Shown here: in pieces, positions 16,403 through 18,371 of the stretch
How the letters are laid out: each line of letters starts with the position of its first letter
Numbering within the stretch: the first letter of the stretch is position 1
Assembly: GCA_944325245.1 (NCBI GenBank)
Contig: CALUZM010000001.1
Coordinates: 1 to 64,000, forward strand
Length of the DNA: 64,000 nt
Source: an uncultured Massilimicrobiota sp.
Lineage (GTDB): Bacteria; Bacillota_I; Bacilli_A; Erysipelotrichales; Coprobacillaceae
Direction of reading: 5' to 3'
Notes under the pieces: generated by a model
The model's database searches: none
What the model saw: the letters and a program-made list of their open reading frames with translations, nothing else
Told to the model about the DNA's origin: nothing
Position numbers and translations under genes: made by a program

Positions 16403-16427
16403 AAAAACTGCGAATCACGCAGTTTTT
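16403..16427. terminator. Bidirectional terminator
   Basis: AAAAACTGCG / CGCAGTTTTT with loop AATCA, then T2. It separates the lactonase gene from the convergent MATE gene, whose last codons overlap it. Confidence 0.85.
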
Positions 16428-17722
16428 TTAATTCTTAAAAAGAATGTCATACCTATAACCGCAACAATAAGTTCTGTTGCTGGAAATGCACACCAGACTC
16501 CTTGAATATGAAAAATCCATGATAATACAAATGCCATTGGTATAATAATTACAAAACCTCTTAAAATAGAAATGATATGTGCTGGCAATGGATTTTCTGT
16601 AGAAGTTAAATACATCGATATAATAATATTAAATCCAGCAAATGGACAAGCTATAAAATATAATTGTAAACCATTTGTTGCAATTGTTTGTAATATAGCG
16701 TTATGTTCACTATTAAAGATTTGAGTCACTTGTTCCGCTCCAAAAAAGACAATACTGTAAATCAATACAGACACCATGATCATTGTAATCAGGGCATAAC
16801 GCAATACTTTATGAATAAAATCAAAACGATTCATACCGTAATAACGACTCATCAATGGTTGAATTCCCTGAGCTATACCTGTATAAATAGCAATCACGAC
16901 TAAACTTAAATTGGCAATGACACCATATGCAGCAACACCAACATTACCTGCTAAATGAAGAATCATAGCATTAAAGACAATCATCACAATGCCTGAAGAA
17001 ACTTCTGTCACCAATGATGGAACTCCACTAGATAAAATACTTAGACAAGAGGATATACGCATTCGACATTTTGTGAAATGAAACTGATTCTGTTTACGTA
17101 AAAAATGTGGAGATAAAATCATCATACTGATGATAGGTGCTAACCCAGTCGCAAATACAGCACCAAAGATTCCCATCTGACAAGGGAAAATAAAAATATA
17201 ATCCAAAACAACATTGGATAAACTCCCACCAATCATAGCTGCCATGGAAAGCTGCGGCGCTCCATCATTACGTACAAAACATAGTAAGACATTATTTAAT
17301 AAAAATGCTGGCGCAAACAATAAAATAACTCTCAAATAAGTGACAGCCATTTCAAAGACTTCACCTTCTCCACCAAATAATGTAATGATGGATTTTGAAC
17401 AAAATAACCCAATCAAAACAAAGACAAGAGCAAAAACACCTGCCAGTGCTACTGAATGAGTAAATATTTGATTGGCTGATGAATGATGATTCTGACTTTT
17501 GAAAATAGAATACTTTGTTCCTCCACCCATACCAATCATTAATCCACTTCCATGAATAAAACTATAAATAGGAATAGCTAAATTTAAAGCTGTTAATCCA
17601 TTGGTTCCAAGTCCTTTTGAAACAAAAAATGTATCTGCTAAAATATAACAAGATAATCCAATCATTCCCATCACATTCAAAGATGTATATTTGATATATT
17701 CATAAAAACAACTCTTCTTCAT
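16415..17722 (-). CDS. MATE-family efflux transporter, MepA-like
   Basis: Multidrug and toxin extrusion transporter of about 435 residues and 12 membrane helices, exchanging cations for substrate. The N-terminal half has LNVMGMIGLSCYILADTFFVSKGLGTNGLTAL-type sequence (for example LADTFFVSKGLG) and GGGTKYSI, typical of the MepA branch. I set the start at 17722, with GAGGGAG upstream; the frame can also start at 17755 but that overlaps the previous gene. It is the second gene behind a leader resembling the guanidine-IV (mepA) riboswitch, which suggests that guanidinium is a substrate or inducer. Confidence 0.88.
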   Translation of the reverse strand: MKKSCFYEYIKYTSLNVMGMIGLSCYILADTFFVSKGLGTNGLTALNLAIPIYSFIHGSGLMIGMGGGTKYSIFKSQNHHSSANQIFTHSVALAGVFALVFVLIGLFCSKSIITLFGGEGEVFEMAVTYLRVILLFAPAFLLNNVLLCFVRNDGAPQLSMAAMIGGSLSNVVLDYIFIFPCQMGIFGAVFATGLAPIISMMILSPHFLRKQNQFHFTKCRMRISSCLSILSSGVPSLVTEVSSGIVMIVFNAMILHLAGNVGVAAYGVIANLSLVVIAIYTGIAQGIQPLMSRYYGMNRFDFIHKVLRYALITMIMVSVLIYSIVFFGAEQVTQIFNSEHNAILQTIATNGLQLYFIACPFAGFNIIISMYLTSTENPLPAHIISILRGFVIIIPMAFVLSWIFHIQGVWCAFPATELIVAVIGMTFFLRIKKTA

Positions 17723-17732
17723 TTTTTCTCCC

Positions 17733-18218
17733 TCAAGACTCTTTAACAAGTTCAATAGCCTGTTTTCCTGTTATCTCTTTGATATCAAGTTCCAATATAC
17801 ATAATGTTTTCCAGAACTTTTCTATTTCTTCTTGACGACTTTGCCTACTTTCTGCTGGTGAATATTTGCTTGCTAGTGTTTCAATCGCATGACGTTTTTC
17901 CTTATCATCTTCAATGACACGTATGTTTCCAAAAACAATAACACTACAAAAATAAGTTGTATATTTTTCTGGAACAATGTTGTCCTGATCAATAACACAA
18001 AATGAAGCTTTCTCATTTTCTTCTATCAGATCTAGTTTATAGCCACTTTTTGCACAATGGAAATAGATTTTATGATTATCATATACATAACTCAAAGGAA
18101 CACCATAGGGTTCCTTTGCATTTCCACATAATGACAAAACCCCTGAAGTTCCTCTATTTAAAATCTCTATACATTCTTCATTTGATAAAGCTTGTCTTTT
18201 ACGACGCATTTCTTTCAT
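17733..18218 (-). CDS. Pyridoxamine 5'-phosphate oxidase-like flavin-binding protein
   Basis: A 161-residue split-barrel protein of the PNPOx-like/NimA group. The N-terminal RRKRQALSNEECIEIL followed by GVLSLCGNAKEPYGVPLSYVYDNHKIYFHCAKSGYKLD is a typical start, with the His-x-Ala-x-x-Gly-x-Lys contact to flavin phosphate. Such proteins bind FMN, F420 or heme and several act on nitroaromatic compounds. It is first in the operon, ten bases before the MATE gene, and lies directly behind a terminator-type leader, so both are presumably switched on together. Confidence 0.85.
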   Translation of the reverse strand: MKEMRRKRQALSNEECIEILNRGTSGVLSLCGNAKEPYGVPLSYVYDNHKIYFHCAKSGYKLDLIEENEKASFCVIDQDNIVPEKYTTYFCSVIVFGNIRVIEDDKEKRHAIETLASKYSPAESRQSRQEEIEKFWKTLCILELDIKEITGKQAIELVKES

Positions 18219-18242
18219 ATTTTATCTCTCCTTCCATACAAA

Positions 18243-18337
18243 ATAAAAAACATTGACTTTCGCATCTTCTATGGCCTAACGATACGAAATCAATGCTTTT
18301 CAGTTTACCCGGCGGCAAACATAATAGATATATCTAT
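18243..18337 (-). ncRNA. Riboswitch leader resembling guanidine-IV (mepA motif)
   Basis: Transcribed leftwards into the PNPOx-MATE operon. Read on the minus strand, the leader contains GTTTGCCGCCGGGTAAAC as a short GC hairpin, then a strong terminator: CATTGA-TTTCG paired with CGAAA-GTCAATG, followed by T6. The terminator loop contains GGCCATAG, which could pair with GCC in the first loop. A guanidine-IV riboswitch (mepA motif) is known to precede mepA-type MATE genes in Bacillota and to prevent terminator formation when ligand binds. Position, gene context and the hairpin-plus-terminator layout fit; the class assignment comes from memory and has not been tested with a covariance model. Confidence 0.65.
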
Positions 18338-18342
18338 CTTGT

Positions 18343-18371
18343 ATCATAACATATGCTTTTCCTAATAGCAA
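18343..18371 (-). promoter_or_regulatory. Promoter of the riboswitch leader
   Basis: On the minus strand TTGCTA (18366-18371), a 17-bp spacer and TATGAT (18343-18348), placing the transcript start near 18337, just before the predicted aptamer. Confidence 0.6.

Follow-up and report, generated by a model that had tools for sequence, protein, structure and literature searches.

The leader of the nim-type/MATE operon in the window, by which we mean the whole 64,000-nucleotide stretch of DNA analyzed here, is a guanidine-IV riboswitch with a probability that we put at about 0.88. This leader (18240–18336, minus strand) would act as a transcriptional ON switch for the two genes that follow it. It is almost certainly a further member of an already known RNA class that turns genes on by antitermination, with guanidinium as the putative ligand and ON as the predicted direction of control. 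The assignment gives a Bacillota operon a guanidine-sensing switch that the Rfam copy used here apparently lacks, and a small home-made model was enough to find further members of the class.

Leader architecture and promoter

The leader contains a first hairpin (P1), a linker, and a second hairpin (P2) that bears a U-tract and forms a terminator, which is the layout of guanidine-IV RNAs. The ATG of the first gene follows at 18218 on the minus strand, and the coordinates of all features are collected in Table 1. The fold of the leader was more stable than that of dinucleotide-shuffled sequences (z of about −6.2), with none of 200 shuffles reaching the same stability. Folding also showed that the upper stem of P2 can form alone, which exposes its loop and keeps the linker extended until the lower stem closes. 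By genome search, the element is single-copy in the host genome.

Transcription is expected to start near 18336 on the minus strand. Single promoter matches were not more frequent than chance in our scan (11 found versus 11.2 expected); the enrichment was seen across loci. Upstream of the RNA at 36 loci, the best sigma-70 score averaged 9.1 out of 12, compared with 7.8 in shuffles, and TG preceded the −10 element at 39% of these loci versus 7% in shuffles, as it does in the window promoter. An earlier sequence-only reading had listed the promoter TTGCTA-17-TATGAT, a hairpin, and a terminator, leaving the strand unstated. All of these are present, on the minus strand, and the terminator loop contains AGGCC.

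Table 1. Features of the leader and operon, in window coordinates.
Feature	Position	Strand	Basis
Sigma-70-like promoter TTGCTA-17-TATGAT, extended −10 (TGT)	18343..18371	-	Scan; signal enriched upstream of 36 loci
P1 hairpin GUUUGCC-GCCG-GGUAAAC	18303..18320	-	Fold; 6/7 pairs change on both sides in 28 homologues
GCCGCCGGG	18316-18308	-	Sequence
P1 tetraloop GCCG	18313-18310	-	Fold
Kissing-loop strand GCC, P1 loop, pairs with 18274-18276	18311..18313	-	27/27 scorable homologues paired
P2 terminator hairpin	18249..18297	-	Fold; 16/17 pairs change on both sides in 28 homologues
P2 upper stem	18289-18281 with 18266-18258	-	Fold
P2 apical loop GUUAGGCCAUAGAA, 14 nt	18280-18267	-	Sequence, fold
GGCCATAG in terminator loop	18276-18269	-	Sequence
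Kissing-loop strand GGC, P2 loop, pairs with 18311-18313	18274..18276	-	Covariation; published A29-U72, C30-G71 contact
Terminator U-rich tract UUUUUUAUUUU	18240..18250	-	Sequence
Shine-Dalgarno-like GAAGGAGAG	18225..18233	-	Sequence
Nim-type PNPOx-fold flavoprotein gene, 161 aa	17733..18218	-	Pfam Pyridox_ox_2 2e-24; NimABCDEF model 177.9 bits, cut-off 260
MATE efflux transporter gene	16415..17722	-	Pfam MatE 4e-39; NCBIfam
Operon-end intrinsic terminator, readable on + strand too	16403..16427	-	Scan

Covariation and the kissing loop

Both stems of the leader covary among homologues, as does the contact between their loops. In an alignment of 28 sequences, 24 of the 27 base pairs show two-sided changes; 95.5% of cells are paired, compared with at most 46% in slid controls. 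The alignment was fitted to both stems and not to the kissing pairs, and we therefore regard the kissing pairs as the strongest evidence. The P1 and P2 loops are complementary in all 27 scorable homologues, with two-sided changes at two of the three pairs and no broken pair. The outer pair is GC in 22 sequences and AU in five, the middle pair is CG in 26 and UG in one, and the inner pair is CG in 26 and UA in one. A contact between the GGCC of the terminator loop and the GCC of the first hairpin had been proposed before, and the covariation supports it. The contact also matches the kissing loop of the Clostridium botulinum guanidine-IV RNA, which includes C30–G71 and A29–U72 (PMC11611296).

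Published mutants allow the individual letters of this contact to be compared. In the C. botulinum RNA, U72C weakens the kissing loop, A29G/U72C restores it, and G77 is essential (PMC11611296). In Lactococcus lactis, G66, U67, and G72 are essential, and U67A abolished binding (PMC7736828). The window RNA contains the kissing G and a G six bases 3′ of it, at the same spacing as G71–G77 and G66–G72. Unlike the tested C. botulinum RNA, it has G–C rather than A–U as its outer kissing pair, with G and C at positions 29 and 72, the combination of the A29G/U72C restoring double mutant. The C at the U67/U72 site pairs with a G of the P1 loop. Among published guanidine-IV RNAs this site is U (U67) in about 97%, a preference of that set that is not stated as a requirement for the class; in the majority of the RNAs detected here, the SugE-linked ones among them, it is C, which counts against the assignment. 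The natural G–C kissing pair across most of the order provides independent evolutionary support for a kissing-loop mechanism that was put forward on the basis of mutants.

The outer kissing pair also varied with the linked gene. It was mostly A–U in PnuC-linked RNAs (L050, L057, L069, L071, L072, and L076) and mostly G–C in MATE- and SugE-linked RNAs; exceptions were a PnuC-linked RNA with GCU/AGC (L051) and two MATE-linked RNAs with A–U (L065 and L074). This split could be due to descent or to tuning.

Conservation and covariation also bear on whether the leader senses a ligand at all. An ordinary ligand-free intrinsic terminator or attenuator, for example one between noc and the operon, would account for the long hairpin and its U-tract, and noc does end just upstream of the element on the same strand. 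However, the loop letters are kept across genera and across the phylum, where the loop of a plain terminator would drift, and the kissing pairs covary between two distant hairpins. The same gene types, moreover, follow the element in unrelated neighborhoods. We consider a plain terminator very unlikely.

Distribution and gene context of the RNA family

The leader is conserved within the genus, where it was found in four further species, and it occurs in one more distant family member. In the window and genomes G001–G004, the loops read GCYGYCGRGU and AGGCC, and the closing pair of the P1 loop is C–G, U–A, or U–G. In the distant genome G024, in which the RNA lies upstream of a nim-type gene, ACC/GGU replaces GCC/GGC. 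A covariance model built from seven sequences and seeded with nim-linked RNAs (R1) detected the RNA in 27 of 295 genomes of the order, and a second model built from 28 sequences (R2) detected it in 16 of 392 genomes of the phylum. R2 also matched RNAs preceding MATE genes in Acetoanaerobium and Monoglobus and gave a weak match, likewise ahead of a MATE gene, in Enterococcus faecalis; in an Oscillospiraceae genome, the matched RNA precedes a PnuC-nim pair.

The genes downstream of the RNA belong to a narrow set. By tblastn, the next gene was MATE, PnuC, SMR/SugE, B3/4, or nim-type at 38 of the 40 loci inspected, and no gene of that set was found directly downstream at the other two (L098 and L117). 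Examples of SMR/SugE-like, PnuC, B3/4, and MATE genes were confirmed by Pfam and NCBIfam, and three members of the family are SugE-linked.

Some matches departed from the model. In the SugE-linked RNA L109 (genome G108), an extra small hairpin parts P1 from the terminator, indicating more variation in the linker than the model allows for. At L062, the model took a spacer hairpin as P1; immediately upstream of it is GGCUGCCGCCGGGCAGCC, probably the true P1. The DNA matches L039 and L040 look coding or due to chance and have no P1 hairpin, and an antisense model match (L042) was excluded as it corresponded to the palindromic terminator.

Class assignment

The window RNA shares several features with guanidine-IV, also described as GGAM-1 or the mepA motif (PMC7736828, PMC11611296). 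Both have two hairpins of which the second is a terminator, C–G plus R–Y kissing pairs, and a G six bases after the kissing G, and MATE, SugE, PnuC, and B3/4 genes lie downstream of the window RNA's family as they do in the published class. The published gene associations are SugE, PnuC, and MATE (PMC7736828), together with B3/4 proteins, some of which are now called CtdA (PMC10018355). The guanidine-IV candidate of the sequence-only reading is thus supported by homologues that precede the published gene set.

That reading had also suggested a search with Rfam covariance models, and this check was formally negative. Rfam 15 gave no relevant match for the window RNA at gathering or relaxed thresholds, but the SugE-linked members of this RNA family escape it as well. 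We therefore regard the null result as uninformative and do not count it against guanidine-IV. Since Rfam recognizes none of these RNAs, the downstream gene set is the key link between our home-built model and the published class. The proposed link to the L. lactis and C. botulinum sequences is drawn from loop letters, spacing, and gene context. Two hairpins that kiss via short loops are also found in guanidine-II (mini-ykkC), but the window RNA lacks ACGR loops, works via a terminator, and has no Rfam match.

The RNA could instead be of the type of Gd4v, an orphan variant found as a gut motif, with the same architecture and ON switching and a gut compound other than guanidine as its ligand. 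Gd4v likewise precedes MATE genes (PMC9788692), and the window RNA has C where validated guanidine-IV RNAs have U67/U72. Gd4v is characterized by a base other than G at D1, an additional apical hairpin on the terminator, an association with a transaminase (PRK07324), and no SugE linkage in any case (PMC9788692). The text of PMC9788692 gives D1 no position number; the two published positions to which it may correspond are both G in the window RNA. The apical loop of the window RNA has no extra hairpin, only a weak 3-bp option. Every one of its loop letters is shared with one or more SugE-linked RNAs found with the same model (L055, L061, and L062), and the gene context of its family, which includes SugE, differs from that of Gd4v. 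A Gd4v-type variant therefore appears improbable. Given the SugE-linked family, the shared loop letters, the guanines at the two possible D1 sites, and the lack of an extra hairpin, sequence comparison favors guanidinium over a related compound as the probable ligand of the guanidine-IV-type leader.

Proposed mechanism

Studies of the class support antitermination, in which the ligand stabilizes the kissing loop (PMC7736828), and the kissing loop has been proposed to stretch the linker, blocking the lower terminator stem. In the window, P2 would zip fully when no ligand is present, and the U-tract would stop transcription before the genes. When guanidinium is bound, the GCC of the P1 loop would kiss the GGC in the loop of a half-formed P2. 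The rigid kissing complex would keep the lower terminator stem open, and polymerase would continue into the genes. The MATE transporter would then export guanidinium, and the nim-type flavoprotein would have an accessory role.

Operon genes and the recurrent nim-type gene

The operon encodes a MATE pump, as had been noted from the sequence, although it is not specifically MepA-like. The protein scored 219.8 bits with PRK09575 and 201.9 with FepA, compared with 99.1 for MepA, and every score was under its model's cut-off. We chose the ATG start for this gene; the open reading frame itself opens with TTG at 17755. Whole-genome searches of the host (G000) found neither an SMR (SugE/EmrE) gene nor a guanidine-I riboswitch, so the MATE protein may be the sole guanidine exporter. 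The nim-type/MATE operon is likely the only guanidine export system found in this genome.

The window operon differs from guanidine-IV operons as published in having a nim-type first gene. The order RNA-nim-MATE is found in the window, G003, and G004, with a broken nim-type gene in G001, and RNA-PnuC-nim is found in G007, G028, and the Oscillospiraceae locus L002. Monoglobus (L079) has RNA-MATE-nim and G024 has RNA-nim, while a divergent nim-type gene lies beside the RNA in G140 and G177. Some of these linkages carry a seed bias: nim-linked RNAs served as seeds for R1, and the nim-type protein itself led to L002. The linkages in G007, G028, and Monoglobus are free of this bias. Searching contigs with the nim-type protein yielded a single relative, which proved to be in an RNA-PnuC-nim arrangement. 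Six aligned nim-type proteins are 55%–75% identical to that of the window. The aligned proteins score 178–205 bits with Nim models, below the curated cut-offs of 260–270, and we therefore use "nim-type" to mean a relative rather than a proven nitroimidazole reductase.

A Nim-like first gene and a multidrug-type MATE pump might suggest that the RNA, though guanidine-IV-like, works mainly as an attenuator responsive to drugs or nitro compounds, acting via the nim-type product or a regulator protein. However, in the relatives G002 and G039 the RNA and MATE are retained with no nim-type gene downstream, and SugE, PnuC, or B3/4 is present in others. What stays constant is the RNA together with a guanidine-linked gene set, and we give a drug-responsive attenuator almost no weight against guanidine-IV.

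The recurrent linkage of nim-type genes to guanidine-IV-like RNAs, in four operon layouts, is possibly new. The guanidine-IV texts consulted make no mention of a nim-type first gene, and among the open-access articles searched, none combined nimA, nitroimidazole, and riboswitch. It is conceivable, though we think it doubtful, that nim-type flavoproteins are a true part of the guanidine-IV regulon, acting on a guanidine-related compound, and that nim genes may have their origin in guanidine metabolism. If so, an N-oxidized guanidine, for example, could be reduced before export by MATE or PnuC. The recurrent gene offers a physiological lead for a protein family known mainly from nitroimidazole resistance.

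Two further observations concern the nim-type gene itself. In G001 (L084, tblastn 662–823 and 855–2135; L027), stop codons break the nim-type gene and the riboswitch and MATE gene remain, so that MATE alone seems to be retained. Additionally, at position 60 of the protein, a GYK stretch in the genus (window and L083) has Tyr in place of the His (GHK) of the other aligned nim-type proteins, a His that presumably lies near the Nim active site.
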